Assembly (NCBI GenBank): GCA_032718865.1
Contig: JALUTQ010000046.1
Span: forward strand, 310,001-374,000
Source of the DNA: Tilletia caries
Taxonomy: Eukaryota > Basidiomycota > Exobasidiomycetes > Tilletiales > Tilletiaceae
Length of the DNA: 64,000 nt
Direction of reading: 5' to 3'
Shown here piece by piece: positions 1,502-64,000 of the stretch (the stretch's first letter is position 1; every line of letters starts with the position of its first letter). The notes under the pieces were generated by a model. The model made no database searches and was not told where the DNA came from. It saw only the letters and a list, made by a program, of their open reading frames with translations. The position numbers were made by a program, and so were the translations under genes.

Positions 1502-2968
1502 ATGGCCGAGGGCGGTGATGGCGCGGCTTCTTCCGGCCCTTCCACTTCCACTGGTGGAGGTGGGGTTCTCGCTCCCCCCAATCTCCCTCCCACTTCTTCT
1601 TCTTCCTCCTCCACCCTCTCTTCTACCCAGCAGATCGTGTTCAGTTCTGAACAGTTCCAGCAGCTTTTCTCGTCCGCGCTCTGCGCATACAACAAGGACG
1701 CCGACAAGTACGAAGGCCTCTCCTTCCCTTCCTTCAAGATCGACCACTCCTCATCGATCGGTGCATACAAGCTCTGGTTCGGCTGCCCGCTCACGATCCC
1801 CGACGACCTCGTCCGTCTCTTCAACGCTGGCTCGAATCTTCCTCTCTCACTCCTCACAGTCGCCGCAATTCGCGACTTCGGTATCAACCAACGTCGCTCC
1901 TCCTTCCACTCCAAGATGTCCGGCAAGCTCCTGGACGAGTACAACTCCTGGCATCTCCGCGACGAGTTTCTTCCCTTCCCCGAGTGGTCGCAGGCGATCC
2001 TCACCCTCATCCACCTCTTCCGTTCGGTCCGAGGCCCTCCGCCAGAGGACGAGGACATCGAGCAAGACCCGATCCACCAGCTGACGGAACACGTCCTCCA
2101 CATCTCGACCCGGGTCAACAGCTACAACTGGCCGATCTTCCGGGAATACGACAAGCGCATCCGGCAGCTTCTCTGGGCCCCTCGTCCCAAGGGCGTCGGT
2201 ATGCCGTTCAGTATCTCGACGATCCACGCGCAGACTCTGGACGACGCCGAGGTTCTTCTACACGGTCGTTCCGGTGCCGCCGCCGATTACGGCGCGGTTC
2301 TGAACTCTGCCTGGGCTGCGGTCGTGTCAGCTCCTCCCTCGGACATTATCCGAGTTGGCAAGAGACTCGCCGACCTCACTCTTCCATCAGCTGCCAAGGT
2401 CTCTGCGAAGGACGACTCCTCATCCTCCAAGACCTCAACTTCTCACTCTCACACACCCAGCTCCTCCACCAACAACAACTACGGCAGCAATGCCAATGGC
2501 AAGCGCAAGGCAGAAGATGACGGGCGATCTCAATCGCCCCAGTCGTCCTTTCGTGGCCCGCCAACCGCTCCACCCCTCCCTCGCAGCCCAATGTTCTGCA
2601 TCATCTGCCGCATTGTTACGGATCGGCACATCTGGTACCTCTGCCCCGGCCCGTACCCGCAAGACCTCTACCCCAATCCTCCCGGTCAGCCTCGAGGTTG
2701 GACCCGTCGGGGTCAGTCCAAGGACCTTTGTGCCAAGTACAATGCCGGTGTCCCAGAGCCCGGTATGCTGTGCCTCCACGGCCATTACTGCTCCCAGTGT
2801 GGCCGCGACACTTGCCGAGCCATCGACCATGGCCCTCGCGAGAACACCGGTGCTCCCAGCTCCTCGGCCACAGTCACAGTAGCGCCCACTCCCAACACCA
2901 CTTCCAACCCTGTCGGATTCTCCGGCGCCGGTGACGCTCCCACAGCGCCCCCTGCCAAAGACAATTAG
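1502..2968 (+). CDS. Gag-like protein of the YR retrotransposon
   Basis: 488 residues starting at ATG 1502. The first 45 residues are Ser/Thr/Pro/Gly-rich, followed by a probably helical central region (about 45-300) and a Ser/Asn linker with a basic KRK stretch. The C-terminal Cys/His-rich part (about 365-445) contains CIIC, CLHGHYCSQC and CRAIDHG and probably binds nucleic acid. I recognise no named domain; the Gag role is inferred from its place before RT. The frame ends at TAG 2966. Just before it lies a C5 run (2948-2952). With one C fewer, the reading frame would continue straight into the RT frame, so Gag and Pol may once have been one polyprotein, or a programmed frameshift may occur here. 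Confidence 0.7.
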   Translation: MAEGGDGAASSGPSTSTGGGGVLAPPNLPPTSSSSSSTLSSTQQIVFSSEQFQQLFSSALCAYNKDADKYEGLSFPSFKIDHSSSIGAYKLWFGCPLTIPDDLVRLFNAGSNLPLSLLTVAAIRDFGINQRRSSFHSKMSGKLLDEYNSWHLRDEFLPFPEWSQAILTLIHLFRSVRGPPPEDEDIEQDPIHQLTEHVLHISTRVNSYNWPIFREYDKRIRQLLWAPRPKGVGMPFSISTIHAQTLDDAEVLLHGRSGAAADYGAVLNSAWAAVVSAPPSDIIRVGKRLADLTLPSAAKVSAKDDSSSSKTSTSHSHTPSSSTNNNYGSNANGKRKAEDDGRSQSPQSSFRGPPTAPPLPRSPMFCIICRIVTDRHIWYLCPGPYPQDLYPNPPGQPRGWTRRGQSKDLCAKYNAGVPEPGMLCLHGHYCSQCGRDTCRAIDHGPRENTGAPSSSATVTVAPTPNTTSNPVGFSGAGDAPTAPPAKDN

Positions 2969-4900
2969 AGACGCATTCACTTGCGTCTCAACCACCCTCC
3001 ATGCAGATCACTTCCTTCATGCCATCGACTCCATGCCCCCTGCTCTCAGGGATGAATATGCATACATTCCCAACTCTATCACCAATGGCTTCTCAATGGG
3101 CCCTCTCTCTCTCCCTTCCTCAACTCACTTCCACAAGAACCATTACAAGGAGGACCGCCAATCATCCATCGACAACTGGTTGTCGAAATCGCTTGATGCC
3201 GGGTTCATTGCTGGACCTTTCGACACGGCCCAGGTGGAGGCGGAGATTGGCCCGATCCACGCGTCACCGCTCCAGATCGTCGACAAGCACGATGCCAACG
3301 GTCGGATCATCAAGGAAAGGATCGTCTACGACGCTTCCTACCCCAAAGCCCGACCCGGCCGACCACCACCCCCCATCCCTTCCATCAACTCCCAGATTCG
3401 GAAAGAGGACTACCCTTGCGAGTGGTTTACTGCGGTCGAGACAAAGATCTTGGTTAGTACCTCTCCCTCTCCTGCTCCTTCCTCTTACCTCCCTTCTTCC
3501 TCAGCTTGGCAGCTCTGCTTGCTTGCTACCCTTGGCGCATCTGCCCTCTTCTCTTGGCGCTTCTGCCCTCGTCCCCTGGCGCATCTGCCCTTCTCTCTCT
3601 TGGCGCATCTGCCTGGCGCATCTGCCCACTCTACCCTCACACCTCCTACTCTCTACCTCGCTCTCTTCTCCTGAGCTGCTCTCTAACCTACATCTTCTCT
3701 CTCCTCTTTCTGCTCCCTTGATCTCTTCAGATCCGCTCCGCTCCTCCTCACGCACGCTTTGCTGGTTTCGACCTCAAAGACGCTTTCCAACAGCTCGGGA
3801 ACTTGCCGTCTCAACGACGCCTGTTCTGCATCAACGTCCTCGACCGCATTTACGTCTGGCTCGTCGGCATCTTCGGATTGACCTCGATCTGCGGTCTCTT
3901 TGGGGCGTGCTGCGACGTAACTTGCTTCTTCCTCGAACTCCTCTTCCCCCTTCTCCTCACCAAGCACTACGTCGACGACTTTCTCGTCGCCGACTTCGCC
4001 CCTCCATCTTCTCCTCACGCCGATCGGCCCTTCGATCTCATCCTACACGCGGTCCGCGAGTTCGGCTGGGAGGTCCATCCGGAGAAGTTCTTCTCCTGGA
4101 CTCGGCAGTTCACCTTCCTTGGCTTCGAGTGGGACGCCGACTCTCGCTCCGCCACTCTCACTCAGAAGAAGCAAACCAAGTTCCTTGGCAAGCTAATCGC
4201 TCTCAACAACTCTCACGACGTGTCCGAGAAGGAGGTGGCATCTGTGATCGGCTCCTGCCAACACGTTTGCGTTATCGCCACTTATCGACGCTCCAAGCTC
4301 AACGCCCTCTATCGCCTACGCAACTCGTTCATCGGCTCTCACTCTGCTACTCGTCGATATCTCGACACTGCCAGCAAACGCGAAGTTGTGGACTGGATCC
4401 ACTTCTTCCAAGCCGGCCCAGTCACTTGCTCGCTCGATACTTCCTCTTCGTTCTTCCACACTCCGGTCTTCTCCGACGCCAGCGACTTCGCTCTCGGTGT
4501 CGTCCTCGGTTCCAAGGCCCTCTCCATCCCTCTACCCCCTGACTATTGCGACCGTCCCGAAATCAACATCGGTGTCGGCGAGGCCTGGGCTTTCGAACTC
4601 GCTGTCCACGCCGCGATCGCTGCTGGCGCTCGCTCCTGCGTTCTTCTCGTCCACGTCGACAACCAGGGCGTGGTCTACGCCCTGCGTCGAGGAAGATCTC
4701 GCAACCAGCTCGTCAACGAGGTCATTGATCGCACCTCTGAGTACGCTCTCTCCTTCGACGTCGAGCTTTCGGTTCGTTACGTCAGGTCAGAAGACAACCC
4801 CTGCAGACGCTCCGTCGAGGGGGACTCTTCAGGATACGAGCCTCTCATCTTCCCATTCGATCGCCCTTGGGAGTCGATCCTGAACATTCGGTCATCATGA
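2931..4900 (+). CDS. Reverse transcriptase-RNase H of the YR retrotransposon, split by an intron
   Basis: Pol of the DIRS-order element. Exon 1 (2931-3452) contains the RT fingers, with IVYDASYPKARPGRPPPPIP. Exon 2 (3731-4900) has RT motif A (GFDLKDAFQQL), motif C (HYVDDFLV) and a thumb/connection, then an RNase H-like part with VFSDASDFALG and VHVDNQG. The intron 3453-3730 (donor GTTAGT, acceptor CTTCAG) joins in phase 0. Its removal brings motif A into place, and the upstream frame otherwise runs into a stop by 3674. The frame overlaps the end of Gag and has no early ATG; the first internal ATG is about 3033. The stop TGA (4898-4900) overlaps the ATG of the recombinase as ATGA. Confidence 0.75.
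3453..3730 (+). other. Spliceosomal-type intron inside the RT gene, with minisatellite
   Basis: 278-nt intron required to join the two RT exons. It starts GTTAGT and ends with a pyrimidine tract and CAG. Five imperfect copies of tggcgcatctgccc, spaced 13-22 bp, lie at 3533-3627. The rest is C/T-rich. Confidence 0.65.
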
Positions 4901-6445
4901 CCCAGCCTCCTTCTCTTTCACGTCGGCGCTCTTCTTCTTTTTCCGGTCGAGACCTCTTCTCTCTCCTCTTCTTCATTGCTTTCTCAACCTCTCAGCTCTC
5001 TTTCTCTTCGTCGGTCCTTTGAGCGCACGCAACCTTCTTCTTCCTCTACTCCCCTCTCTTCGTCAACTTCGGTTCTCGCTTCCACTTCCAGATCCTCAAT
5101 CTCTTCTTCATTCCAGGCCTCTACTTCAACTGTTCTCCACCCTTCCCTCAATCAATCCACAACGCTTCGTACTTCTTCATCTTCCCCTGCGCTCCGTCGC
5201 GTGCGTGGCTCCGGCAACGCTACTCGTGCTCGGGAGCACGCCGTTGCTACCTTTGGCTCTCTCGACTCCTTCTCCATCGGCTCATCCGACATGGTCGCCA
5301 ATATCTGGGCCACCCTCTCTGAGGACGACGTTCCAACTGCCGATCTCTCTGGCGAGGAAGCCGACAGGATGCCTCGTTCGGAAGCCCTTCCCCGTCTCTC
5401 TCCTGCTCGGCACGTCGTTCGCGCGGTCTTCGGCTCTCTGGACGACGACGCCATCGATCGACTGAGGGAGTTCCAGCTCCAACGGGTCAAGAAGTCGACG
5501 CAAGCCCAATACGCAGGCTTCGTCGTCAACTTCCTGCTCTGGGCTGACGACTTGGACATCCCTCTCCACCTCCGTTTCCCAACTCCAGACAACCTCCTCC
5601 TTCTCTTCTTCTCCTCGATCTCCCCCTACTACGCCGAGGCGACCCTCAACAAGTTCGTGTCCGGACTCAAGCTGTGGCACGCGATTCATGGTCTCCCTTG
5701 GAGCCTTGATCGCGTCCAGGGTCGAACTATCCGCCAGGCCTTCAAGAACATCTCCCTCGACCCCCTCAACCTCCGTCGACCTATCCGTATCGACGACTTC
5801 AAGGCTATGCGCGCCCACATGGATCCTCATGATCCGGGCGACGCCGCTATTTACGCCTGCGTCCTGTTCGCGATGTGGTCGATGTCCCGACATGGCGAGC
5901 TTACTGTCCGCACAGGATCAGACCCTCCTTCTCGCCGCGCTCGACATGGTGACTTCAAGCCCATCCAGGACACTCCTGATGGCCCCATCAACTCATATCC
6001 ACTCCACATCCCCTCCGACAAGACTCATGCTCGTGCCGGTTTTGACCGGGTCGCTTCTGCCCAGCCCAACAACCTTCCCATCTGCCCCGTTACTGCCGTC
6101 CGCTGGCATCTTCACGTCAACAGCTCTGTCCCTAAGGACGCTGGTGCCTTCGCCTATCGAGGAAAGCTTGGGAAACTCTACGAGTTGACCAGCTCCCATT
6201 TCGGCAAGACTATCAACGACTGGCTCCGCAAAGGTGGTCGCCCCCCAATCCAAGGACACTCCTTCCGCATCGGTGGTGCGACTCTTCTCCATGCCAACGG
6301 CATCTCCATCGCTGACATCAAGCACCTTGGAGGATGGAAATCCGATGTCGCCATCCAGTACATCCGGGACATTCATCTCAAGCACGCCGAGTTAACCTCC
6401 AACCTCAACGTCGACATTCTCCACCGTCCCCTCTTCGACTCTTGA
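4897..6445 (+). CDS. Tyrosine recombinase (integrase) of the YR retrotransposon; one-base frameshift near the start
   Basis: The catalytic part is an intact frame up to 6445. It has an N-terminal SAM-like region (FQLQRVKKSTQAQYAGFVV), an Arg box (FAMWSMSRHGEL), HSFRIGGATLLHANG (the HxxR box), HLGGWKSD and the likely nucleophile Tyr in IQYIRDIH. It would resolve or insert the circular DNA intermediate at B|A junctions. The best start is the ATG at 4897, which overlaps the RT stop. That frame meets the recombinase frame only if the T5 run at 4938-4942 is read as T4; as given, the frame from 4897 ends at 5023. Without that ATG the catalytic frame has no Met until about 5290. The N-terminus is Ser/Thr-rich. 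Confidence 0.75.
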
Positions 6446-6666
6446 CTCTCCTACCTCTTCTCTCTGCTTCTCAACTTCTCCTCTCTTCAACTTCTCCTCT
6501 CTTCTCATACCTTTTTCTACTTCTCTTCTCTTGCTCTTCCTCACTCCGCCTTTAATTCCACACACTTTTACGATGTTCCTGTCCTTGTTGGTGCCTCCAA
6601 CGCTCGCCAGCGGGTCTCGTCTTCGACGCTCGAGCTTGACGCTTACCGTCCTTCGGACAGGCGGGA
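6446..6666 (+). other. 3' untranslated spacer of the YR element
   Basis: 220 bp between the recombinase stop and B1. It is C/T-rich, then contains unique sequence with tcttcgacgctcgagcttgacg. No coding signal seen. Confidence 0.5.
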
Positions 6667-6861
6667 TGGCCAGCCCCCGCTGCTGCGTCCAGACTGCGAG
6701 CCCCTACCAGCGTTCCGAGCATCCTATTGCTCTAAGGCACAACAAAGACACACTCCACGTGCGTCTGGGTCTCATTTAGCAGAAAGTTACTGAGTTTCTC
6801 CTCTAAACAAGTCTCACTTCTCTTTCATGAACATAATCACTCCTAAACGCAGCGAGTGTGG
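6667..6861 (+). repeat. B1 split direct repeat
   Basis: 195 bp from tggccagcccccgctgctgc to cgcagcgagtgtgg. The same sequence occurs at 17519-17713 and 22284-22478. It abuts A2 without a gap; such a B|A junction is what circle closure of an Ngaro element produces. Confidence 0.85.
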
Positions 6862-7070
6862 CTGTAACAGTTGACGTCTGCAGGCGCAGCGGAACAAGCT
6901 GCCACGCGAGAAGTGTGGATTGATTCTGTTTTTGTCACGTGCTCTCGTCGCGTCGCGCGTCCGTAGTACTCACGACGCGCGACTCCAACACTTCCTCTTC
7001 CTCTCTTCGACGATCTTCGCTCTCTCATTTGCCCTCGCTCGCTCAGATCATTCTGACCGCAGCAGTTCTT
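6862..7070 (+). repeat. A2 split direct repeat, interrupted by MULE copy 1
   Basis: Copy of A1 starting directly after B1. It is broken after gcagttctt (7062-7070), which is the 9-bp target duplication of the MULE. The last bases of A2 (ttgttcc) reappear at 17461-17467 on the other side. Confidence 0.85.
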
Positions 7071-7343: not shown

Positions 7344-7927
7344 TGTTGAAGATTGCATCTTCATAGCAACCTCCACGTGGTTGTGACCTTTCCACAGTCT
7401 TTCCTATATAGATGAGACCCTTAGTCTCATTTGTGACTCCACTTCCAGTCTCATCGATTCCTGCGTTTGTGACACGAAATCGTTGCGCAACGATGTGGCA
7501 CACATTGTTCATTGCGCAATGGCTGTCCTCCCCCTGTACCCACAAAGCTATATAAGCAGGCACTTTCCACCACCACTGTTTCCCCCGCTCCTATTGAAAT
7601 TCACCACACACGTTCCTGCTTCCACTCTCCCTCGTCACCTCCTCACCTTTGACCTCGTCCTCCTCATCTTTTACCTTCTCGCCCTCATCCTTGACTTCCC
7701 CGTCAAAGGTTGCATCCTTTCCGTATCTTCAGGCATAGGCTAGAGTTCTGGCAGCACGTCACTTCGCCCTCATTGCGAGGGGGTACTACGTAGCTGACCG
7801 TCCGACACCGAACCTGAGATACTGGGATTGCTCCTGCGACTCGTCAAGCGACGTCGGCCTCTCTCCTCCACCTTGTCGGTCCTCCCAAGGTGAGTAGTCG
7901 AGCACTGAGCACCTAGTATTTACAACA
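7344..7927 (+). repeat. 5' LTR of the Copia element
   Basis: 584 bp, TGTTGAAG...TTTACAACA. It has a TATA-like ctatataagc near 7550, a 16-bp perfect palindrome at 7479-7494 and a 10-bp one (attgcgcaat) near 7515. The 7732-7810 stretch resembles part of the Gypsy leader at 59518-59594. Confidence 0.92.
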
Positions 7928-8499
7928 GATTAAGAGTCTGACTAGCTCTGCTCCTTTCTTCCCTCTGCTCCTGTCCGTGGACTTTCTTCTGGTCCTCGTC
8001 CTCGTCCTCGTCCTCGTCGATCTCGTCTCTGCCATCCTCGACCTCGTCTTCATCGATTTCGATTTTTCGACCTTGTCCTCACGAATCGCTGGTTCTCCAC
8101 GATTGCTGTCGGTTCTCCGCTTGCCGCTGGTTCTCCGCCGCCTGCCAACCTACCACTCTGTTTTTCGGTGCTGCTTCTGGTCCTCCTCGCACACCTCGAC
8201 CTTCGATCTCCACCTTGTCGGTCCTCCCAAGACGGATCCAAGGTTTTCTTCAAGCATCCAAGGCCCGAGCAAGACTTGCCTTTCGGCTTTCTCTCTTCGT
8301 TCTTGTGCCCTCGCTGGCCTCGACCTCCTCGACCGCGACTTCGAGAGCCTTTCTTCTGCTCTGCGTCGCCTTCGATCTCGTCCTGCGGTTTCTGCGTTAT
8401 CGCTCCCGCCTCGTCCTCGACTCTCCAGTCTTCTCGACCTCCGATCCTCTTCTTTCTTCGGCCCTCGGTCTTCTTTCTTCTCTGCCTCTCTTCTTCGAC
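7928..8499 (+). other. Copia leader between 5' LTR and Gag
   Basis: About 570 bp without a convincing gene. It is dominated by ctcgtc repeats. The first bases after the LTR (gattaagagtctgac) are in the primer-binding position, but I cannot name the matching tRNA. Confidence 0.5.
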
Positions 8500-11400
8500 A
8501 TGGACGACACCAACTCCTCCGCCATCTCCGGCATTCCTTCCCTCGTCAGCCTCGAAAACTTCTTCGCCTGGCGAGAGGCAATCGAGCCCGTCTTCATCGG
8601 CATCCGCGCGTTCGACATTGTCCGCGGCGTCGAGACTCAGCCAACTCTGCCGCCCAACGCCACCTCCACCGATGTGCGCCTGTCCGAGTCCTGGAAGGAC
8701 AGGGACGCCAAGGCCATGTCCTACCTCCGCAAGACGGTCAGCGGGGCCCTCAAGGCCATGATTCGAGACCTCTCCTCGTCCGCCGACATGTGGTCCCTCC
8801 TCGCCAGTCTTCACGACTTGGGTTCCTCGGATCATCGGAGCGCCATCAACCGCAAGATGGTGAACCTCTTTCTCGACGAGGGCGGAGACATGGTCCAGCA
8901 CCTCAACTCCTTCATGGAGCTGGTGGCTGAGGCGAGCGCGGCGGGTCTTCCTTGGGGCACGGAGGACAAAGACAAGTGCGACCGTTTCCTCGACACCCTT
9001 CCTTATTCGCTCAGGGTTGTCAGGACGGAGTGGCGGCAGCTTCCGAAGGACGAGCGGACCTTTTTTTGCAGCTCGTCCGGGTCTACAACGAGGAGAACGC
9101 TTCTCAGAAGCACACGGCGGAGCGCAGCGCCAACGCCATGGCAATGGCCGCTGCCAGCCAACATCTCCACATCGCCATCAAGGGCGTGGCAAACAAGGCC
9201 CGCTCCGGCAAGTCCTCTTCGGGTGGCGGCAAGAAGAAGTCTTCTTCTTCGCCTTCTTCTTCTCAGGCGACCTCCGGCAGCAGCAAGGGCAAGGGCAACA
9301 GCAACGGCAACAGCAAGCGTCTGCTCTGCTACGGCTGTGGTGCTCGCGACCACGAACGTCCTGACTGTCCAGTCGCGAGCCACCTTCTTCCCGGCAATGG
9401 TCCGATCTGCTGGACATGCCACAAGCAAGGCCACGTCAAGTCCGAGTGTCCCAAGTCGACTTCGTCGTCCGGAAAGGCTGCCGCCGCCCTCGAGTCTTAT
9501 CCAGACGCCGACGAGATGCTCGCAGCCATGTTTGAGCCCTCCGTTCTTGCCGCCTCCACGACGTCGACCTTGATTCCCTTCATGATCGACTCTGGTGCAT
9601 CACAGCACATTGTCGACCGACCCGAGCTGCTCCTCAACTCTCGGAAAGCGGACAAGACCTTGACGTTCAAGACGGTTGGCTCCAAGCAGGCATCCGACCG
9701 CATCGGCGATGTCACTGGACTTCTTCCCTCCGGCCGCCGCGTCACTTTCCTGGACGTTGTGCTTCTCCCCGGCGCCGGAGTCAACTTGCTTTCGGAGGAA
9801 CTGCTGCGCGAGCGTGGCTGGATCAAAGTCATCGACGAGGATGACAACGCCCACCTCCAGCACAAGGACAACGCCTCTTGGCGCATGCCTTTGACCAAGC
9901 GTGGTCGAGCTCGATGGCTGCTGTTACACGTCGACCTTGCGGCCTCCACATCGTCTCCCTCAGCGATGCTGGCACCAATGCAGCCCGCTCAGCGCGATCC
10001 CGCTCTCGAGGTTCACATTCGCCTCGGTCACTTGGGCTTCAGCACCATCAAGAAGCTCGTCCGTTCGGGTCATCTTCCTCCCATTCCTGGGCTGAACGAT
10101 GCCACGCCTTGGTGCGATAGCTGCGAAGCTACCAAGGCTACCCGTCGACCGTTCAACGACGCGCCTCTCCACGCGAGTTCTCCGCTGGAGATCATCCTCA
10201 CGGATGTTGGCGGTCCCTTGGTGACTTGTTTTTGGTGGTTTCCAGTACTACGCGACCTTCATTGACGAGTACACGGACTACACCAAGGTCGACTTACTCC
10301 GCTCCAAGGCCGAGGTTTTTCGCTCGCCTTGTTGAGTTCGTCAAGGTAGCCGAACGGACTTTCGGCACCAAGGTGCAAGTCATTCGCACCGACGGCGGCG
10401 GCGAGTACGTCAACAAGCACATGTCCACCTGGACTGCTTCTAAGGGCATCCTCCACCACATCACAACGCCCCACACCCCGGAACTCAACGGTGTGGCTGA
10501 GCGCAAGAATCGTACCCTCAAGGAGATGACCGCCGCCATGCTTCACAGTAGCGGCCTCCCGGTTCAGTGGTGGGGACATGCGATTTTATTCGCTGCGGTG
10601 TTGCTCATGAAGGTAACCTTCGTCAAAGACGGTCGGACGGTTTGGGAGTGGGTACACAAGCGCAAACCCTCCCTTGGCAAGACTCGAGCATTCGGTTCTC
10701 CATGCTGGGTTCATATTCCCGCCGCTAACCGCACCAAGTCGGACCTCACCACTCCCAAGGCCTGGAAGGGACGTTTGGTCAGCTGGCCGACACAGCGCAG
10801 CGGCTGGGGGGGTGCACAACGAGACCACGGGGAAGATTGTCTTCTCCCGCAACGTCTCTTTCGGCCCCAAGCTCTCGTCCAAAGTCACCGAGGTCTCCGA
10901 GCCTTCCAACATCGTCCAGCTGGACGTGGAGCCTGGTGATCCCGGCTTCCTCGAGTACGACGAGGAAGACATTTCCGACGATGACGCGGAGCCAGGTCCC
11001 GACGCCAATAATGTCGAACTTCTTCCTCTTGGCCGCAAACGCCCTGAGCCCGAGGGGGGGGGTGAATCATGCGCCCGGCAACAGTCCTGCCGTGGCCGAT
11101 CGACCTCAAGGCATTCGCCGGCTTCCTGCGCGCGCTGGCCGCGGTCAACGTTCGTCTGCTTTTTCGGGACACGTACGCAGCGTTCATGCAGGAGTCGGAA
11201 GGGTTTCTTTGCAAGATTGCCCTCGTCGACGACGACCCCACAAGCTACGGCGACGCCATGTCGAGTCCTGAGCGTCAGCAGTGGGCCAAGGCTTTCGAAG
11301 CGGAGCTGGAGTCTCTGTTCAAGAACGAGACGCTCGAGGAGGTGGTCCTCCCTCCCGGCGCCAAGGTCGTATCGACCAAGTGGGTCTGCAAGACTAAGAG

Positions 11401-12802
11401 GGACGCAGACGGCAACTACCTCAAGCACAAGGCTCGTCTTGTTGGTCGTGGCTTCACTCAGCGCTACGGCATCGATTACGACGAGACATATGCGCCAGTC
11501 GGACGCATGACGAGCTTGAGGATCTTCTTTGTCGAAGCTGCGGTCCAGGGACTTATGGTCTGGCAGATGGACGCCGAGACAGCCTTTCTCAACCCCAAAA
11601 ATGGATCGCGTCCTCTACATCAGCTTTCCGGAGGGGTGGAAGCAGCAAGATCCCAAGGCGACTGGGCTTCTTGTCCGCAAGGGACTCTACGGCTTCAAGC
11701 AGTCAGCTCGCCTCTGGTGGCTCGATGTCGTTTCCAAACTACGCGACCTCGGGTTTGTTCACAGCGACGCCGATTGGGGCATTTTTCGTTCGCGTCGAAC
11801 CCAACGGCAACCGCACGATCGTTTTTCGTCTACGTCGACGACTTCCTGATCGCTGCGAAGACTCAGGCCCTCATCGACTCCGTTCGCGAGGGCCTCAAGG
11901 CCTCCTACAGAATGACCGACATTGGTCTCGTCAGCTCGGTACTTGGAATCAAGGTCCAGCAGCTCGACAACGGCTTCGCCCTCAGCCAAGGTCATTACAT
12001 CGACACAGTCCTGGAGCGTTTCAACATGACCAACTGTCGCCCGGAGTCCTCTCCTATGGCGGTCGGAACTAAGCTCGTCCCAGAGGGAGTGCCTTTGACG
12101 GACGCCCAGCTTTTCCAAGCCCTGATCGGTTGCTTGATGTGGATCGCCCTCTCCACCAGGCCTGACATCAGCTTTGTCGTCAGCGCGCTCTCCCGTTTCA
12201 ATGGCTGCCCGACTCAGGCTCATTACCAAGCTGCCCTTCGCGTCCTCCGCTACCTCAAGGCAACGCGAGACTTGGCACTGGTCCTCGCTCCCGTCAAGAT
12301 CGACGGACAGCCCGAGCTTACTGGCTACTCCGACGCCGACTGGGCCGGAAACGTCGAAGACCGCCGCTCTCAGTCTGGGTACGTCTTCAAGCTGTACGGC
12401 GCAACCGTCAGCTGGGGTTCCCTTCGCCAGCAATGCGTTTCTCTGTCCTCAGTTGAGTCAGAGTACGTCGCCCTCACCGAGGCCGTCAAGGACGCCATCT
12501 GGCTTCGTACAGCCGTTCTCGCGTACGACCAGACCGCTCCTCAGGCTGTCGGCATTGTCCTGAAGGGCGACAACCAGGGTTCCATCGCCCTCGCACAGAA
12601 CCCTGGATGGCATCGACGCACCAAGCACATCGACCTTCGCTACCACTTTGTCCGCTGGCAAGTTGAAGAAGGTGCGATCAAGCTTGAATACGTTGGTACT
12701 TCGGATCAAGTGGCCGACATCTTCACCAAGGCCACTCCGACTCCCGTCCTCGTCAAGCATCGGAGCAGTCTTGGTCTGCTCGACCCCGCCAACGTCGTCT
12801 GA
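8500..12802 (+). pseudogene. Copia Gag-Pol polyprotein gene with many one-base frameshifts
   Basis: Gag starts at ATG 8500 (MDDTNSSAISGIPSLVSLEN). Domains in order: Gag core, two zinc knuckles (CYGCGARDHERPDC and CWTCHKQGHVKSEC), aspartic protease (FMIDSGASQHIV), Cys/His pre-integrase region (HIRLGHLGF...CDSC), integrase core (VIRTDGGGEYVN, NGVAERKNRTL), RT (HKARLVGRGFTQ, FVYVDDFLIA) and RNase H (YSDADWAGNVEDRRSQSGY), ending at 12802. Frames change at T7 9061-9067, T5 10229-10233, T5 10316-10320, G7 10806-10812, G9 11054-11062, T5 11160-11164, A5 11597-11601, T5 11781-11785 and T5 11822-11826. Seven of these nine are repaired by removing one base. The T7 needs -2 or +1 and the G7 area is complex. 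Confidence 0.88.
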
Positions 12803-12847
12803 CGGTCATCACTCGACTTCAGCAACCACGCTGCGGTTGAGAGGGAG

Positions 12848-16567: not shown

Positions 16568-16569
16568 AT

Positions 16570-22478: not shown

Positions 22479-22486
22479 CCCGAAGT

Positions 22487-39195: not shown

Positions 39196-39238
<43 letters not shown>

Positions 39239-45857: not shown

Positions 45858-45951
45858 CTTCTTTCTGCGCAGATCGTATCGAGGCCTTGAATGACTTTAC
45901 GAAGGTCGAGCGCGATGCTGGGACTTGGGAGCATGAGTTTCGTGTGTGAGG

Positions 45952-51060: not shown

Positions 51061-51090
51061 CCGTGTACAGCCCACATCCTCCAACCCATC

Positions 51091-54000
51091 ATGCCGCTAC
51101 CAACTTCTCACCTGAAGGCACGAAGGCCTATCACTCAGCTTCAGCCTCACTACCTGGGCGCCATGGTCTATCGATGTGGCCACCGCCATTGTCTAGCACG
51201 GCACTGGCTCGACGAAAAGGTCGGCGGTTCTCGCACTGCACCTGTCTTCTCTTCGTGTTGTGCACATGGAAAAGTGAAGCTGCCTCGTATCTTCGACGCC
51301 CCCGCACGGATCGAACAGCTCTACAAAGCAACAGATGTCCTTTCTGAACGATTTCTGGCGTCGACTCGGGACTTTAACAACATGTTCGCCTTCGTTTCTA
51401 TGGGCGGTGGTTCCAGAGACATGAGCGTCGCCGGTCAGCTCGGGGTCTACACTTTCAAGATTCAAGGGCAAGTCTATCACCAGGCTGGCTCTTTGGCGTT
51501 TTCGTCCCCCAACGGTCGTCCCTGCTATGCGCAGACGTACTTCGTCCAGACAGACCCGGACTCCGAGATCGGGACTCGCATTGACGGCGCTGCCCGTCAA
51601 CAGGAGATCGATCGCGTCACGGTTGAACGCGTGCAGGAGGAGCTGTACAACAACAATCCATACGCATCGTTTCTCCGCACGGCAGCAGAAACACTTTCTC
51701 CAGCAGAAGACGAAGGTGCAGACACCGCTATCCGTATCATCGATCCGGGAAGAATCGGCGGAGCTGATCCTCGCACGTACAATCGACCTCGAGCTTCGGA
51801 GATCGCCGCACTCATATTACATGATGCTCACACCGCACCAAGGGGTCGCGATATCATCTTCTACTACAAGGATGGTCCTCTTCACCGTATCTGCGAACTG
51901 CACCCTGCCTTCCTGCCACTTCGGTTCCCCCCTCCTGATTCCGTACGGTCACTTCGGTTGGTACCCATATATTCCTCTTGGACAAGATACCCCACGAGCC
52001 ATCTTCGATGCCGATCAAGCAGTGGCCCGAGCTGCTTTGGCTCTTCCCGAGGGTGAGTACGCGCGGTTTTTATGTTGCTATGTACATACCTGGCCTTGGC
52101 TCTGACCGATGATGAACTCTCTTACAGTGATCGCTAATCGTGGCAGGGGCGGGACCCACAAGGTGACTCTTGAAATGTTTCATGCCTTTCACCTGCACGA
52201 CCGTGGAGCCTTTTCGACTCTATTGTATGCTCGCAATCTTCTGCAAGAGTACGTTGTGGACGCTTGGACCATGATCGAACAAGACCGAGCCGACTGGCAG
52301 CGCCATAATCAGGACAAGCTCCGTGCAGAAGTCTACTCCGGTCTTCAGGACGCACTCATCACCGGTCAAGATCTGAACTCTATCGGGAGACGAACCGTGC
52401 TGCCCTCCACGTTCACAGGTGGACCTCGCTGGTGGCAAGCGCGATATCATGATGCGATTGCTCTCTCACGACAGTATGGCCGTCCAGATCTCTTCATCAC
52501 CATGACCTGCAACGTTCACTGGCGAGAGATCCAAGACGAACTTTACCCCGGCCAGTGCGCTTCCGATCGACCGGACTTGGTTTCCCGCGTATTCTGGCTG
52601 AAGCTCGATCACGTCCTCGAGCAGCTCACGAAGCGTCATGTGATGGGCCATGTGGTCGCTCATTGCTATTCGGTCGAGTTTCAAAAAAAACGCGGTCTTC
52701 CACATTCACACATCCTACTTTTTCCTTCATCAAAGCGACAAACTCAACAATGCGAGGGCGATCGACTCCGCAGTATCTGCCGAGCTTCCCGACATCGAGG
52801 TAGAGCCCGATCTCCACCGCGCCGTGCTTACACATATGATCCATGGTCCCTGTACATTCAATCAGCCGTGCATGCAGAATCCAACAATGCCTGGGCGTTG
52901 TTCTCGGCGGTATCCGCGCCCGATTAGGACCGAGACTGTTGCGGACATAGACGGATATCCCGAATACCGTCGACGGCCGAACGGTGCTACCGCTCAAAAA
53001 CGTACCTCTGGCGGCCAACCTGTTACCGTAGACTCCAGCTGGGTCGTTCCATACAACCCCTTTCTTTTACGCACCTTCGACTGCCACATGAATGTCGAAG
53101 TCTGCACAGCAATTAGTGCGGTAAAGTACCTGTACAAGTACATTTTTCAAAGGCCCAGATCAGGTGACCATTACCACCGACGCTGAAGGCAACGCTACCG
53201 TCGACGAGATCACCGATTACCTCAAAGCACGATATGTGTCTCCCTGCGAAGGTCAGTATCCACTTAGCACTTATGCTTACGCACCAGCATCATCACTGAT
53301 AAGTACTCCTTCTGTTCTTCTGAACAGCGGTTGGTCGTATCCTCAACTTCCAGCTCCACGGCCTCCATCCTAGCGTTCATGCCCTAGATATCCACCTCGA
53401 GAACCAGCATCAAGTCGTGTTTGATCCCGACGATGAAGACAACGCAGCAGAACGCCTGCAAGCAGCCGAACAAAAAGTCCAAACTCCTTGCCTTCTTCGC
53501 GCTGTGCGCCAGTGACCCCGCAGGAACTGCCGACTTGACATACGCAGCAGTACCAGGTCGATATACCTGGGTAGCACGGACATCACTATGGAAGCGCCGT
53601 GCTAACCCCCCGTGCTCAAGGGCAACTCGGACGCATCTACTACGCCCCCTTCTCCAGCGGTGAAAAGTACTACCTTCGACGACTGCTTCACATCGTCCTC
53701 TGCCCTAAGTCCTTTGCCGACCTGCGTACTTTCAACGGGACCGAGTACCCTACCTTTCGGGACGCATGCGCAGCCCGGGGCCTCATTGACGACGATCAAG
53801 AGTGGCACCACTGCCTCCAAGAGGCATCGCAAATTCAGACCGGAGCAGCACTTCGACGTTTGTTCTGCACCATCATCCTTAACCACGAGGTGCAAAGTAT
53901 TGAGGATCTCTATGAGCAAAACAAGGTCGCTCTTGCCGACGACTGCAGGAGGCGACTACTCCGTCGAGGAGTCCCTAACGCCTCTGCAGACCGGGTCCTC

Positions 54001-55632
54001 TCCCTCTCTCGAGCCCTTCTTCGACAGACGCTGCTGAGGATGCAACCAGACTACGACCTCGCCCACTTTCCCATTCCCGGTCCTGACGCTGCCTTCGCGG
54101 ATGACATCAACGACCTACCAGCTGTTCTCGAGGACGAGTTGTCGTATGATCGAGTCGCACAACTCGCATTCGCCCAGCAGGCATACGCATCGCTCAATGA
54201 CCAGCAACGGACGGTGTTTGACGACGTCACACGCGCGGTACAGCAAAGGGCCTACTCCTCTTTCTTTCTGGACGGCCCAGGTGGTTCCGGTAAGACCTAC
54301 GTTGAGAATGCCACCCTTGCCCACGTCCGAGGACACGAGCAAGTTGCCCTCGCTGTTGCATCTTCGGGTATTGCCGCACTCATGCTCGAAGGAGGCCGCA
54401 CCGCACACAATCGCTTCAAGATCCCTTTCACCATCCAGAGCGACTCAGTATGCTCCATCAGTGCTCAATCCGCGGATGCTGCCCTCCTACGCCGCACCGT
54501 TCTTATCGTGTGGGACGAGGCACCGATGCAACATCGTCATGTTGTCGAGGCCGTCAACCGCCTGCTACGAGACATTCGACAAAACGACCATCCCTTTGGA
54601 GGAGTGGTGATGTTGTTCTCCGGCGACTGGAGACAGACTCTACCCATCGTGCGCGGAGGATCCGAAGCCGATGTTCTCTCAGCTTGCCTCCACAAGTCTG
54701 CAGTGTGGAACTACATCACCACCCTGAGGCTAACTGCGAATGAGCGACTTCGAGCACAACCATCCTCAACGTCCGAGCAAGTCCGAGCCTTCCTGACTGC
54801 GTATAACACCTGGGTCATGAACGTCGGTAACGGAACACAGCAGGTCGATCAGTACAACAACATCAGCATCCCGAATTGGATGCGCTTCGAAGATGACGAC
54901 CCGACTCCGCTGATCACCTCCATCTACGGGGATATTCCCAATCACATTTACAATCTCGAATCGTACTGGAGCAGGCGAGCCATTCTACATGCTCGAAACG
55001 TGGATGTCGACGCCACGAACACGCATGTTCTCTCTCTACTTCCCGGAGAAGTACACGTCGCTCATAGTGCCGACACTGCAATCACCCCAGACGGAGATCA
55101 ACATCCAGGGTACCCACCAGAGTCCCTAGCAACCATGACGCCTGCAGGACTGCCGCCACACCAATTGATGCTGAAAGTTGGCGCTCCTGTCATGCTGTTG
55201 CGGAACCTAGATCCTTCTCATGGACTGTGCAACGGCACAAGACTCATGATCACAGCCATCCGGCCCAAGGTCATCGAAGCCAAGATCCTGACGGGAGCTG
55301 CCAGGCACAAAGGTCAAAGTGTCCTGATCCCCCGCATCCGGAACCGAACCGGAGAAGGCGTCCTTCCCTTCATCCTGGACCGTCTTCAGTTCCCCATTAA
55401 GCTATGCTTTGCCATGACCATTAACAAAAGTCAAGGGCAGTCGATCGAGCGCGTCGGAATCGATTTGCGATACTCTACTTTCGCTCATGGCCAACTTTAT
55501 GTTGCCCTCTCCAGAACTACAGATCCATCTCATGTGCGTTGCCTACTCCCCAAGGGACATTCCTTCACCCCCAACATTGTCTTGAAGGCGGCCCTCGCCC
55601 ATGCGTTGCGTCGCAACCTCCCGCCCTCTTAG
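51091..55632 (+). pseudogene. Helitron Rep-helicase (HUH nuclease + PIF1-like helicase), frameshifted
   Basis: Starts in the Helitron N-terminal region (CGHRHCLARHWLDEK ... CCAHGKVKLP). The HUH motif is GLPHSHILLF near 52695-52720 and the Tyr region is KYLYKYIF near 53130. The helicase has Walker A GPGGSGKT (about 54274-54297), Walker B VLIVWDEAPM and the C-terminal motif YVALSR before the stop at 55632. An intron lies at about 52042-52127, another near 53253-53327. The frame breaks at C6 51927-51932, T5 52719-52723, T5 53143-53147, A5 53472-53476 and C6 53606-53611; in each case removing one base restores the expected family sequence. It would nick and unwind DNA for rolling-circle transposition, but is inactive as read. 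The helicase part (53612-55632) is intact. Confidence 0.82.
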
Positions 55633-55919
55633 TCCGTAGCTCATCAATGTACTCAATACTGTATTCGTACCTCCCTACATTATTCCAAGTCCCAACTCCA
55701 GTAACTCATCGCGTTCAACGTTCAATCTATCAAGTCCCAACTCCAGTACCCTACCGCGTTCAAACTTCACCGGTCCGCATTCAATTCACAACTCATTGGA
55801 GTGTCCATTGCGGCATTGCGGCGGCGTCAAGCACCTATGCAGCACCCTCTTCACTACAAGTGTCCTTTGATTCGTGATGGTCCCTTGCGCAATCAGAAGT
55901 CCGTGCCCACCCACTCCAT
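55633..55919 (+). other. Spacer after the Helitron helicase with a short direct repeat
   Basis: Two copies of caagtcccaactccagta followed by a similar cgcgttcaa stretch (about 55687-55720 and 55730-55765). No gene seen. Confidence 0.55.
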
Positions 55920-57674
55920 TCAGCCGCAGTCCTCAACCCGTGCACGCTTCTCTGTTTCGTCCCCAGCGGCATTGTCGTCACGATTGCGCTTCCTCATCAT
56001 CAGCTGAAACGCTTCCTCCGTCAAGACCTTGGAGCCGCTCGGACCAGCTTCGTTCCCGTTTGCGGTCGCGCCATCCGCTCTGGCAGTGACCGCCACCTTC
56101 TTTCCGTCGGAGACCGCTTTCGAGCGTGCCGTCCACGCATTCTTCGCCGTGGTCCCTTGCTTGCCTCCTTCCGCTTGCGTCGGCGTATCGACCTCTCGCA
56201 CCCCGTTCCGCAGCTCTTCAAGGCCAACCACGAGTCGAGGCTCCCCCTCCACCGTCTGCAAAGTCTCCACTGAACCTCGCGCGCCAATGAATTCCCCCCA
56301 TCCCAACCGGCTTATACTTCTCCCATCGCTTTGTGTTGGGAACCAGGTAATGAGTGATCGTAGTCAGCACACCATTTGCCTGCGGATGACAATGAGAACA
56401 AACACAGAACACCTCAAAGTTCATCAGTACTAGAGACGACGCATTGACTTCAGTCGCTTTACTCACGGTATTGACACGACTCTCCAAAGTAAAAGATCGT
56501 GCCTTTGACTCGATCACCTTCCCCGCAGATCGCACCCTCCACGCCTGCTTGAACAGCTGATTCTCCATGTACTCCTCCGTCTCCACCTCTCCCGGACGCA
56601 GTTCGACCCGGCCATCAATCATCTCGAACACGAGCCCATCTTTGTCGAAGCCGACCCAGACGCACATGCTGTAGATTCCGCCGACGATCGGAGCCTCCTC
56701 TACCGTCCAGCGCATTCTGAAATCCAACGAGTCCGCTTTGGTCGTGATCGTGCGGCCCGTGACCGTAGTTGTGCCGCCCTCCTCACACACGTCGAAGACC
56801 AGAAACCGGTAAGAAGACACACAGTAGCTGTTATTTGTCGTCAACATCGATGACGTTGCCTTCGGGGCCATAGCGCCTGTTGTCGACGCCGACGCCGACG
56901 CACTCGGATTCGTCCCGGGGCCAGTAGTCGCTGTCGACGCGGGTTTCTTCTTTGTGTTCCAGGCACTCGACCACTTCGAAGACGCAGAGGGTCCCTTACG
57001 CGCCATACCGAGCTTGGGTTGGTGAGGAATACCATCCTCAATGAACTGGAGCCGAGCCGTGACGCCACCGTCCAGGGAGGTAATCGCTCCAAGGCCTCCT
57101 GCAAACGTACCAACCTTCGGCAGCGTATCCTCGCTCTCCGTCGTAAACATGATCTCGAACGGTATCTTATCCTCCACCTGCTCACTCATCATTCAAAAGA
57201 AAATGCACATCAGTTATCATCCACCTATACAACGTGCACGCATCCACCAGTGACCAGAACGATCAACACACTCACCATGTACGTCTTCCCTGTAATCGTA
57301 AACGAACCACTCCCGCTCGCCGTCACCAGCCCAAACGCGTGGACCTGCATTCGAAGGCTGGAGAAGTGCCTGCCCACGTACTCCTCCTCATCCGCCGGAT
57401 CTCCAGGCGCCACCTCCACCTCAGCACGGTTCCACACGAGCTCCACTCGCTTTCCCGGCGTAGCCAACTGGAAGACGCCCGAAATCACGCTCCCAGGCAC
57501 AGGACGACCTTCGCCCCACCAACCCTTCAGTATCACGTTTCCAATGTCCCCGGAATCCAACAGGCCGACGGACTTCGTCCAAACAAATCCGACCTTCGTA
57601 TCCACGTTGCCGATTTCGTCCACGGGAAACTGGTGAAACACGTCCGCCCAGGTGCTATACGTCGACACCGCCAT
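55920..57674 (-). CDS. Unrecognised protein with two tandem related domains; one frameshift
   Basis: Exons 57674-57276, 57177-56467 and 56379-55920. Total length is a multiple of three only if one G is removed from the G6 run (plus-strand C6 56294-56299), giving about 522 residues. Two segments of about 87 residues look homologous. The first, ending at GKTYM, has PVPGSVISGVFQLA, VEVAPGDPADEEEYVGRHF and SGSFTITGK. The second, ending at SRVNT, has APIVGGIYSMCVWVGF, VELRPGEVETEEYMENQLF and ARSFTLESR. Each ends exactly at an intron. A Thr/Ser/Ala linker separates them. The C-terminus has NHxxP-free, basic sequence (MMRKRNRDD, KRARVED). I know no family that fits; a beta-rich or OB-like fold is only a guess. 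Its place behind the Helitron helicase and its homopolymer break suggest it belongs to the transposon. Confidence 0.5.
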
Positions 57675-59161
57675 TGTGTATGTTGATTGGTTTGATGAGA
57701 TCTGCAGAGAAGAGTAGTTGAAAGACGTAAAAAGGAGAGAAAAGATGAGCGTTAGGTGAGCGCATGCGTTCAAACTCCAGCGTACCATCCCTGCACTCAG
57801 CATCCGTCAACTGCCCATTATATACCGGCCAGTGAAAACAAACCCACCGTCAGCAGCATCCATCACCTCCCCTCTCTGTTCAGCACCCTACCTCCCCCTT
57901 CTCACACCGGCACTCTCTGCTCACTCACTCGGTCACTCACGTCTCACAATCACGTTCTCATTCCATCCGTTGTTGAAGTCACATTCTCATTCCATTTGTC
58001 GGTTTCACACGTGCCTCCACGGCTCCACCGCACTCCGGCGGGCGCCCTTTAGGGCGCCCGCGCCTGTTCCCTTGTCTTCTCTATAATTTACGCATTGATA
58101 TATGGTATCTGCGCGCGCGATATGTGGTGCGCGTTGTTTTTATTTCTCACCTGAGACGCGCCGCGCGTCGACAAGTGTCACGTGGCGCGTGTGGTGTGCG
58201 ACGCGTGGTGCGCGTTGGTTTCTCACGCGCCCAACGCGTGGTGCGCGTCACGTGCCACATATGGTGCGTGTTGTTTACAATTTTGGTGAAGTGTTGGTTC
58301 ACGCGAATTTACCATCGAAACACATTTTTCGCGTGGTGAACCAACGCTCACCACGCGCACCGCGCGCACCACTCACCACCGCTTCCTCTCACCTCACCTC
58401 GCCACACTCACACTTCCCCTTTGACTCGTCCCTGCTCCCATGATGACTGTATGACTGTGTATGTATTTAGCCCGTGTCAAAGGATGACTGTGTATTGACT
58501 GCTGGGTGATTTATGGTGACTGTTGGATGACTACTACACCGCCAAATGAAGTCGGGGACTCCCGAGATGCTAGAGCCGCAAGGCACTACAAAGACTACAG
58601 AAAAACGCCCCGGAGCCCTAGGGAAACGAGGCCTAGGAGTCACACTGGAGTCTCAAGGTCATGAGTGGCTAGGAGTAAATTTCATATCTTCATAACTGTG
58701 CATAGTAAAAGAGTGCTGTTGCGCGCCGTCGTCAAATCTTCATCCACTGCACCAGCTCAGCGCGACAGAATGCCATTTATCGTCGACAACAAAAAAAATA
58801 TGTTTTGGTATATATTGTAACAAATAGAGTGATTTCTGTATCAAACGCTGATAGTATAGGTGGTAGTATGTATGTGTGGAAGTGGGTGTGGTGGCCAGTC
58901 GTGTGATCCATTCCCGCATGCGGAATTTTTATTTTTTGAAATTCAATTTTTAGCTCCTCTGGGATCGGGGCTTATGTAAGCAACCTTCCTGAGTCCCTCT
59001 GGATCCACCACTCGGGAGGGCCTCAGAGGGGAATCCTCCTAGTGGCTCCCATTTATGCTCTAAGCCCTCAGGAAAACTCATGAGCCCACCTCCTACAGGG
59101 GTCTCGTAGTACTCTGAGAAGTTTCGGCTAGCGTTACTCTAACGCTAGAATTTGCCCGCAG
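57675..59161 (+). other. Non-coding region between the unknown gene and the Gypsy element
   Basis: No gene seen. It holds a 10-bp-stem hairpin (58038-58047/58052-58061, loop ttta), four to five variants of acgcgtggtgcgcgttg (58110-58280), AT-rich stretches (58780-58860) and a perfect 9-bp-stem hairpin (59128-59136/59140-59148, loop ctc) just before the Gypsy LTR. Confidence 0.55.
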
Positions 59162-59620: not shown

Positions 59621-59691
59621 ATAACTAGGAAATCTTACACTTTTTTAACTCTCAAAGACCTCTGTGACCAAAAGGTTTACTGAGTCTTACA

Positions 59692-62600
59692 ATGGCACCC
59701 AAGAAGCGTAAAGACCTTCACGAAGGCAGCGAAGCCGCCGCTTCTGCTGCTGATGACATCGCTGGTGCTTCTCAGGGCCAAGCTCAACCTCCCGAAGTCC
59801 CTAGACTTACCTCGGAGTCCTTTCAAGGCAACGAGGACACGGGAGAACATCAAGAGCCCAATCAAAAGGGCAACTCATCTCTCGCGGACACCATCCGCAA
59901 CATCAACAAATCCGATAACGACGATAGCATCGCCGCTGCGTCTCAAGTTGGAACTGAAGCTCCAGAGAAAGATCTCCACGAGCTCAGCGTCGAGGAATTG
60001 GAACTCGAGTTTCAAATCATGTCTCGACAGAATCGAATCGATCTCATCCGCCAAACTATCCTCCAGAAAAAACGTCAAAACAACCAAAACATTCGAAACA
60101 TTCCGGTTCCTCAAGTGCCTGTTTTTGACCCTCCCGTCCGGCAGGCTCCAGTGAACCAACCCATCAGAGAGTCTGCTCTCCCTGACTCTGAATCAGTTCT
60201 TCGCGAACGACAGAACGATCGACTCCGCCGCGCCGGGCTCCTGCCGCCTCGTGCAAGTGAGGCGCGCCAGCAACCCCGAGCCTCGGCACCGGCGCCAGGC
60301 CGTATGTCGTTCCCCCCGCAAACGATACGACACCAGAATGTTCCCATGACGTCCATCCTCTACGGCGTCGACAGAAAGATCTCGGAGATCATGAATTCAA
60401 CCGGTCAAGACGACGACGACCTCCCCGGAGACAAGTCGGAGCTCACTCGCGCCGGGATCAAGATGACCTCTCCAGAGAAATGGAAGGAAGACCGATCACT
60501 CCAGCTGTTCACCGACTGGGTTCACTCGGTAGCCCATTACTTTAAGGTTCACGCCCCGCTCTCAGAACGTCTCAAGGTTAACTTGATTGGCGGGTACCTG
60601 CTAGCCGACCCGTTGGATTGGTACTGGCGCCACGTCGCTCCTCACGCTAAGTCGTGGACCGCGACGGACGTCATGGTCGCACTCCGTCGCAACTTCTTGA
60701 TCGATGAACTCTCACGACAAGCAGCGGACAAATTCGAAAGCGTGGACCAAGGATCGAAAGATATCCACGCTTTCCAGGCATACATTCTCAAGCTCGCCGA
60801 TCAGATGACCGAGTACCCCAGTCCAGTCGCTCTCAACCGTCGATTGCTCAAAGGTATGAAGAGCAATCTGAGCGCGGCCATCATCGCCAACCGCGGCATA
60901 GATGCTGAGCTTTCGCCTTGGGAAGACATTGTGCAGGCTGCCATGGATCAAGAGCGCGCCCAACGCTACGCTGGATCCATGACTAAAGCTGCACCGACTC
61001 GCACGGAAGACCGCAAGGACACTCCCCGCACTTCCCGGCTTAATCAGCCTAATCGTCCCTCGAATGGCCAGGGATTCAATCGACCAAAAGGATCGGCTCC
61101 GGTATACCGGCCGATGGTTCCGGTGAACCGCCCATCGGCCGCCAGCCCCATTCGTAACACGGCAGCTCCGGCTATGAGGCCTACAGGCGCAAAGCCTACA
61201 GACCAATGCCGTACTTGCGGCGCCTTCGGCCACTGGTCGCCGGACTGCCCAAAGCGACTCCGCTCAAACATGCTTGACATGAAGGAATCTGAACCCGCCG
61301 ATCAGGGTACAGATGACGCAGAAGAGTGCTCTGAGCCTGGCGTCATTCTCTTTCAAGAAGAGGATGAAGCCCGTGATGAAGACGGGTGGCTTGACGAAGA
61401 TGAAGACAGTGAGGGCTTGAACTCCAATAACATGACCGACGAGGACTATGAGACTCCTCTCATGTGCAATGGTGTCGCCCACAAAGCCCCTGCCGCCAAA
61501 CCTATCGTTACGCGCGAGTCTAACGTCTCCAATGCCAAGGCTCCTTTCGGTGACGCATCGAAGGTCTCGAAGCACCGGCCGCCGTTGGTTCATCCGATCG
61601 TAGCCAAGATCAAGATCAATGGATACGAGGCCAAAGCCTTGTTTGATTCGGGATCTACAGCAGATCTCATTTCGGCGTCTTTTGTCGATACGCATAAATT
61701 GCCTTCGTTCAAACTGGATGAGCCCTCGCCTTTGCAGCTCGCCATCACAGGTTCCCGTGGCAAGATCAACCGCGCTTGTTTCGTCAAAGTGATCCACGGC
61801 GCGTGTTCGAACAAAGAACGCTACTTTGACATCCTGAACATCGATAGGTACGATGCCATTCTAGGCACCTCTTATCAAAAAGACTTCGGTGTCTTGCTGG
61901 ATGTTTCCGCCAACGAGGTCATCTACAAAACAAATCCTACCCAGTTGATCTTCAACACCAAAGAAATTCCGACTCCGAAGAAGAAGCCGGCGGTCTTGGT
62001 CCGCAAGGCGCCTCTGTCGACTTACGGAATCTCTCACTCTAGATTCGTCAAGGATAAAGTCTTGGTCTCTCCCAAGATCGGACGCCTTGCGACAGTAAAC
62101 TTTACGCGTGCAACTGAGCCTTCAGGTGTGAAGATTGTCAAGACGGTACGTACCGAGATTTGTCAGGATGACCCACTGATGCCCGCTTCACTGGCAGTAT
62201 CAGTACAGGACACGATCATTGATCGTCTTCGCGATAAATGGATGACAAGCACGAAAGACCTGTGGGGTCCTCGTCCGTTGAAGCTCCCCCCTTTTCGGGA
62301 GATCAACCATTCAATTCCACTTATCGACGAAAATTACCGACCTACCAGTCGACCGGCCAAATGTCCGGAACAATTCCGACAAGCGTACATCGACAAGATC
62401 AACACTTACACGGAGGCTGGCTGGTGGCAACGAGCCAGCGTTCCCGCTGCAATGCCAATGATGCCAATCCCCAAAAAGGATAACCGTATTCGTACGGTAG
62501 TCGACGCAAGGCAACGCAACGACAACACTCACAAGGACGTCACTCCGTTTCCCGATCAAGACGTGATTCGACGTGACGTAGCTCGAGCAAAGTTCCGCTC

Positions 62601-64000
62601 CAAGCTGGATCAAGCCGACTTCTTCGAGCAAATCCGTATTATCCCAGAGGATGTCGGAAAGACGGCGTTTGCTACGCCATTCGGCACTTTTGTCAGCCTC
62701 GTGGCTCAGCAAGGAGACTGTAACGTCCCTAGTACAGCCCAGCAGCTGATGATGTTCCTCTTCCGAGAAATCATCGGCAGGTTTGCCCACGCGTACTTGG
62801 ACGATATCTTTATATTTTCCGACACTCTAGAAGAACACGAGGAGCACCTTGCCACCGTGTTCGACATACTCAGGCGGGCTGAGCTCTACCTCTCGAAGGA
62901 CAAAATGGATCTATATTCGAAGTCCATGATTTGTCTAGGGCACGTTATTGATGATAACGGCCTACATGCGGATGAGGATAAACTGAGCAAGATTATCGCC
63001 TGGAAGGAGATGAGTACAGTCAAAGAGGTTCAGCGTTTTTCTTGGACTGGTCCAGTACCTTGCCCAGTTCTTCCCAAACCTTTCCACAATGACGAGCCCC
63101 ATCTCCAAGCTCACGCAGAAAGGACAACCGTTCGAATGGGGTCCCTTACAGGTCGCGTGTCTGGCGCAACTACAACGCGCTGCCGCCAACGCTCCCATTC
63201 TGAAACCAATCGATCCGGCACACAATAAAGAGCCTATCTTTGTTGTTACCGACGCCTCCACGTCTGGCGTCGGTGGCCTGTACGGCCAGGGCCAAACCTG
63301 GCAAACAATGCGGCCCGCTGGGTTCCACAGTCGCAAGTTCAACTCTGCGCAAATGAACTATCGAACGCACGAGCAAGAGCTGCTTGCCGTGCTTGAGGCG
63401 TTGATGAAATGGGAGGACCAACTGCTAGGACGGCAGTTCACAATCATCACGGACCACCGCAGCCTTGAGTATCTACAGACTCAGAAGACACTCAGCGGTC
63501 GACAAATTCGCTGGCTTGAATACCTCTCGCGTTTCACATATACCATTTAGTATGTAGCTGGTGAAACAAATGTGGTCGCAGACTACCTCTCCCGCTTCTG
63601 GGAAGACCCAAAGGTCCCTTCAGAGCCTCACGACTATGTCAACGCCGACGCGCGCCTCAGCGATGACGACGACGGTCCTCCAAACTTGTATACTGCTGCG
63701 ATCCGGCGCAACACTACGGGCGCCAACAACGGGCGTCGGCAAGTCTCGGCACCCAACGCCGCCGAACACACGCCGCCTACTCGACCATCTCTACCTGCTG
63801 CGATCAAAACCGCCATCGACGTCAATGGTCTCGGCGATGACCTCTCTCCTGCCATCCAAGCCGGCTACGCTAGCGACATATTCTTCCGCCTCATCTGGTC
63901 CAAACCTGAAGACCACACCGTCCACTTCGAGGTCGAGGACGAGTTCCTGTGGCGCAAGCAAGATGATGGCAGTCGCACTCTTTGCATCCCAGGGGCCCTT
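59692..64000 (+). pseudogene. Gypsy Gag-Pol gene, broken by a +1 frameshift and a stop; runs off the window
   Basis: Starts at ATG 59692 with MAPKKRK, a basic patch resembling a nuclear localisation signal. The Gag core lies at about residues 260-425, followed by a CCHC knuckle (CRTCGAFGHWSPDC) and an aspartic protease (ALFDSGSTADLIS). The RT has MPIPKKDNRIRTVVDARQRN, SKLDQADFFEQIRI and AYLDDIFIFSD; the RNase H has FVVTDASTSGVGG. The frame is open from 59692 to the T5 run 63036-63040, where one base fewer would carry RT into the next frame. A TAG at 63548-63550 interrupts the end of RNase H (before YVAGETNVVADYLSRF). After that the frame stays open to the end of the window. Integrase and 3' LTR are not in view. 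Confidence 0.85.

Follow-up and report, generated by a model that had tools for sequence, protein, structure and literature searches.

Extra homopolymer bases in transposon copies of a Tilletia caries assembly as probable consensus errors

The extra bases carried by homopolymers in transposon copies of this region of the Tilletia caries genome are, with a probability of about 95%, errors that were left in the consensus of a long-read assembly. Among the copies compared, changes in run length favour lengthening, set in at a sharp length threshold, proceed in near-fixed steps, depend on the strand of the contig and concentrate beside an identical twin copy. Two readings of these runs had been put forward in the first-pass annotation: that of long-read repeats left unpolished is supported by our comparisons, whereas that of an unknown base-adding process is rejected on the grounds of contig-strand dependence and fixed steps. 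In the mechanism that we propose, a base-specific step that sets homopolymer length would over-lengthen many runs of at least four bases on the contig, and this step would most likely be a basecaller or a run-length model miscalibrated for these reads. Short-read polishing would then repair unique DNA, and the errors would persist where reads match another copy equally well or better. We infer the nanopore platform, the short-read polishing and the type of program that made the errors. The transposons here appear more broken than they probably are, and in such assemblies near-identical repeats are an unreliable basis for counting intact elements, for dating by indels or for calling pseudogenes.

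Elements of the window and their lengthened runs

The window is the whole stretch of DNA that was analysed, 64,000 nucleotides in length (G000:C40:310001-374000), from a genome of 38.1 Mb on 40 contigs. The run counts were sampled from five element families, which are represented in the window as follows.

1192..7070, + strand: YR (tyrosine-recombinase) retroelement, with Pfam RVT_1 and Phage_integrase, both under curated cut-offs
7344..13431, + strand: Copia LTR retrotransposon, with Pfam Retrotran_gag_2, gag_pre-integrs, Pol_BBD and RVT_2
13432..22479, + strand: two MULE-like units, from Pfam MULE and self-comparison
50904..57890, + strand: Helitron, given as the compared stretch rather than the full element ends, with Pfam Helitron_like_N and PIF1
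56218-57192, - strand: "unknown gene" in the Helitron stretch, at near-constant spacing to the helicase region in 6/6 near copies
59668..64000, + strand: Gypsy LTR retrotransposon, truncated by the window end, with Pfam RVT_1, RVP_2 and zf-CCHC

For each of the five families, near-identical copies occur at other places in the genome. With the window copy included, the comparison covered 5 copies of the YR element, 6 of the Helitron, 5 of the MULE-like unit, 21 of Copia and 11 of the 15 near copies of Gypsy, for which run comparison was restricted to 61600-64000. Omitted were one of 21 other Copia matches (79% identical), two of seven other Helitron matches (72-73%), one of five other YR matches (69 bp), three short MULE matches at 73%, and four of the 14 other near Gypsy copies together with five weaker or partial Gypsy matches. 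The "unknown gene", for which a Pfam match was not found, is probably part of the Helitron. The two LTRs of the window Copia (7344-7927 and 12848-13431) are identical over 584 bp, and the element is flanked by a target-site duplication of 5 bp.

The arrangement of these elements bears traces of earlier events. The MULE-like units (6667-7343 and 13432-22479) stand head to tail and are 99.79% identical to each other over 4289 columns; the left unit is interrupted by the Copia element and its 5-bp target-site duplication. Self-comparison shows that the YR element, which is putatively DIRS/Ngaro-like, is bounded by a 209-bp terminal direct repeat (1191-1398 and 6862-7070). The same 209-bp sequence is also found alone at 17714-17922 within the MULE stretch, as if a YR copy had once been removed there by recombination.

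Most of the runs named earlier are longer than in sibling copies. The first-pass annotation had listed sixteen runs as over-long by one base, along with two odd ones, and all 18 are present in the sequence, although the run given as 11781 begins at 11782. Two of the sixteen lie within the YR element, and seven of them, with both odd ones, in the window Copia. Against at least one sibling copy, 15 of the 16 are indeed longer, the exception being the run at 2948, and the majority of siblings are shorter at 11 of the 16. Siblings are shorter in 5 of 10 cases at run 63036, in 1 of 5 at three Helitron runs and in 0 of 4 at 2948; at 5 of the 16 runs, some siblings are even longer than the window copy. 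An excess of exactly one base does not hold throughout, since the window run exceeds the commonest sibling length by four bases at 11054 and by two at 9061. The list was also incomplete: two more lengthened runs in the window Copia and two in the window Helitron had been overlooked, as had run variation in the MULE-like units, with nine variable sites among five copies. Four of these nine sites lie outside the 591-aa frame, so coding seems irrelevant. Among the 21 Copia copies, some of which are truncated, more lengthened runs go with a shorter longest open frame (Spearman -0.45, p 0.04).

The C5 run at 2948 is a separate case. Its length does not vary among the five YR copies, of which one is oppositely oriented, and it falls within the overlap of the frames 1418-2968 and 2935-4542, so an ordinary ORF overlap is likely. 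We therefore consider the run to be probably a genuine ORF overlap or a frameshift site, and no error.

Direction, threshold and step sizes

Lengthening predominates at four-base runs. The main counts take each run against its commonest length and are limited to runs flanked on either side by three neighbours in their commonest state, because raw counts from the compressed alignment mix run changes with adjacent substitutions. Under this condition the lengthening claimed earlier is largely borne out, with 101 four-base runs longer and 0 shorter (n=1086). Three-base runs were longer in 5 cases and shorter in 2 (n=6334), five-base runs were longer in 49 and shorter in 7 (n=242), and at six-base runs shorter cases outnumbered longer ones by 11 to 8 (n=68). 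Where most copies are lengthened at a site, the remaining ones would appear "shorter", so the shortening at five- and six-base runs may reflect a commonest state that has already been lengthened. Without the neighbour condition, 113 four-base runs were longer and 33 shorter (n=1224), and larger steps appeared as +3 once at T4 and as +3 once and +4 once at A4. Run-length spectra of the unique and transposon parts of the window were too small to separate.

The size of the step is specific to the base. At unchanged neighbours, all 85 of 85 steps at T4 were +1 and those at A4 were also +1 only, while C4 was lengthened in 0 of 348 runs and G4 in 1 of 242. At five-base runs with the same condition, T5 changed by +2 in 10 of 10 steps, A5 by +2 twice and +3 five times, G5 by +1 once, +2 twelve times and +4 five times, and C5 by +1 twelve times and +2 twice. 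Polymerase slippage should produce mostly single steps in both directions, at a rate that climbs smoothly with run length; instead, four-base runs with unchanged neighbours are never shortened, T5 moves only by +2, and the threshold between three and four bases is sharp. Near-fixed steps of this base-specific kind, together with the threshold, resemble a run-length lookup more than slippage.

Real indels could in principle have been inherited from defective source copies, in which reverse transcription or replication slippage would have made them before insertion. Identical 584-bp LTRs make the window Copia a young copy that has had little opportunity to accumulate about ten indels since inserting, so its changes either pre-date insertion or are unreal. 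The LTR identity fits the former, and at 34 of 64 variable sites the lengthening is found in at least two copies, as inheritance would predict. Against this stand the step sizes, which slippage should have left mostly single and in both directions, and the single spectrum shared by Helitron, YR, MULE, Gypsy and Copia despite their different replication. The pattern of sharing among Copia copies moreover tracks their orientation on the contig, and we regard inheritance from source copies as extremely doubtful.

The preferred reading, residual consensus errors, has partial parallels in published descriptions of nanopore data and software. MarginPolish is described as using a base-specific run-length likelihood, and in MarginPolish/Shasta the run length for each base is picked from a trained matrix (PMC7483855); the likeness to our case is one of behaviour only. 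The same source portrays a simple Bayesian model of repeat counts as sensitive to calibration. R9 nanopore reads are insertion-prone in homopolymers, with insertions making up 63% of homopolymer errors (PMC5466710), although that figure is a read-level statistic from yeast and ours concerns a finished assembly. Nanopore consensus errors are reported to be more often deletions, both for an older chemistry (PMC5466710) and in simulated data (PMC8812927), so the net lengthening here requires a special step.

Dependence on contig orientation

Contig orientation is arbitrary and thus invisible to the cell, which rules out a cellular cause for changes that follow it. When the 21 Copia copies were compared in homopolymer-compressed space, T4 runs of the element were lengthened by one base in 53 of 151 cases in plus-strand copies and in 0 of 74 in minus-strand copies, one of which had a T4 run longer by more than one base at one site. 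A4 runs of the element were longer in 2 of 27 cases in plus copies and in 6 of 13 in minus copies. Sorted by the base on the top strand, across the five families and with unchanged neighbours, T4 was longer in 85 of 271 runs versus 15 of 225 for A4 (p 1.7e-12). Because the sites of one family are not independent, copy orientation was also permuted within families, and none of 2000 permutations reached the observed difference between T4 and A4. T exceeded A in 14 of 18 contigs, A exceeded T in 3, and one was tied; among 50 four-base A/T sites with both orientations, lengthening was higher with T on top at 28 and lower at 10. The contig strand also matters at five-base runs of G and C (18/52 with G5 on top versus 14/106 with C5 on top, p 0.003).

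The T4/A4 asymmetry is carried mostly by Copia. With Copia excluded, T4 was longer in 31 of 134 runs and A4 in 13 of 136 (Fisher p 0.003), but a difference of this size was reached in 85 of 2000 permutations, and the MULE family alone gave no T4/A4 asymmetry (6/32 versus 5/26). Lengthening rates of T5 and A5 were alike (10/50 and 7/34), only the step being different. Mean lengths pooled over all runs yielded a weak effect for T/A (60 versus 38 sites, p 0.03) and a null result for C/G (32 versus 41).

RIP targets repeats, spares single-copy genes and makes C-to-T substitutions. A RIP-like, homology-triggered process of the cell that lengthens homopolymers in repeats would suit the concentration of lengthening where another copy is identical, and the first reading of the window had found no broken host gene. 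Such a process should ignore contig orientation, whereas the T4 and A4 counts follow it and, between copies of opposite orientation, a given site varies with the contig strand. The near-fixed steps, with +1 skipped at T5, are further evidence against it. Unlike the products of RIP, the copies here differ by run length, with 16 of 21 Copia copies at most eight substitutions from the commonest state. The phrase "homopolymer expansion" is also absent among the literature matches listed. We find a homology-triggered process scarcely credible as the cause, and it is barely conceivable that homology-dependent lengthening contributes a minor real share of the run variation, masked by a larger assembly artefact. 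Taken together, the copy-orientation tests leave both biological readings, a process specific to repeats and descent from defective source copies, very unlikely. The orientation test itself works without reads: differences in run length among repeat copies are grouped according to the top-strand base, and any imbalance between the groups reveals an artefact.

Twin copies, repeat edges and host genes

Residual consensus errors should concentrate where short reads lack unique placement, and lengthening is distributed in this way. A run was considered to have a twin when its neighbourhood, 100 compressed bases per side, was identical in another copy. Runs with T4 on top were lengthened in 76 of 190 cases with an identical twin and in 9 of 81 without (p 1.5e-6), and the effect has the same direction in all five families. 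The nine lengthened runs without an identical twin count against an artefact.

Fungal repeats are often methylated, and the basecaller could be misled at these runs by methylated or otherwise modified repeat DNA. Such miscalls would likewise be artefacts and could compound the main error. Copies that share the same context at the same site nevertheless differ, according to the contig strand and to whether a twin exists, and modification as the explanation is in our judgement a long shot.

If errors escape polishing inside repeats, elements should be clean within a fragment length of unique flank, and single-copy DNA should be free of such errors. According to the Polypolish paper (Wick and Holt 2022, PMC8812927), short reads prefer an error-free copy of a repeat, so homopolymer errors persist in the repeats left uncovered, and non-repeat DNA is corrected. 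The concentration beside twin copies is what such polishing would leave behind. The genomes described there are bacterial and the simulated errors mostly deletions, unlike the net lengthening and near-fixed steps found here. In Copia, T4-top runs with unchanged neighbours were lengthened in 0 of 13 cases within 300 compressed bases of an aligned end versus 54 of 124 further in, where the edge sample is mainly one LTR run (0/19 in the two LTRs) and the aligned end does not always coincide with the end of the element.

Host genes without breaks are compatible with the polishing of unique DNA. Six long host ORFs contain 38 susceptible runs, for which 8.2 lengthenings would be expected at repeat rates; these ORFs were selected as open, and the contrast is weak as a test because picking long ORFs favours intact ones. 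With Vac8 and anthranilate synthase only, 14 runs remain and 3.3 lengthenings would be expected (P(0) 0.02). A Pfam match was absent in three of the six host ORFs, and one of those three overlaps a Copia remnant. The PIP5K assignment made earlier near 41143 was not borne out, the ORF at 39636-41426 being without a Pfam match. The Vac8 protein of the window is closest to those of Ustilaginomycotina such as Violaceomyces, Pseudozyma flocculosa and Ustilago, with 68% of the query aligned at 81-82% identity. A prenyltransferase lies in two pieces at 42534-44054, and these are probably exons.
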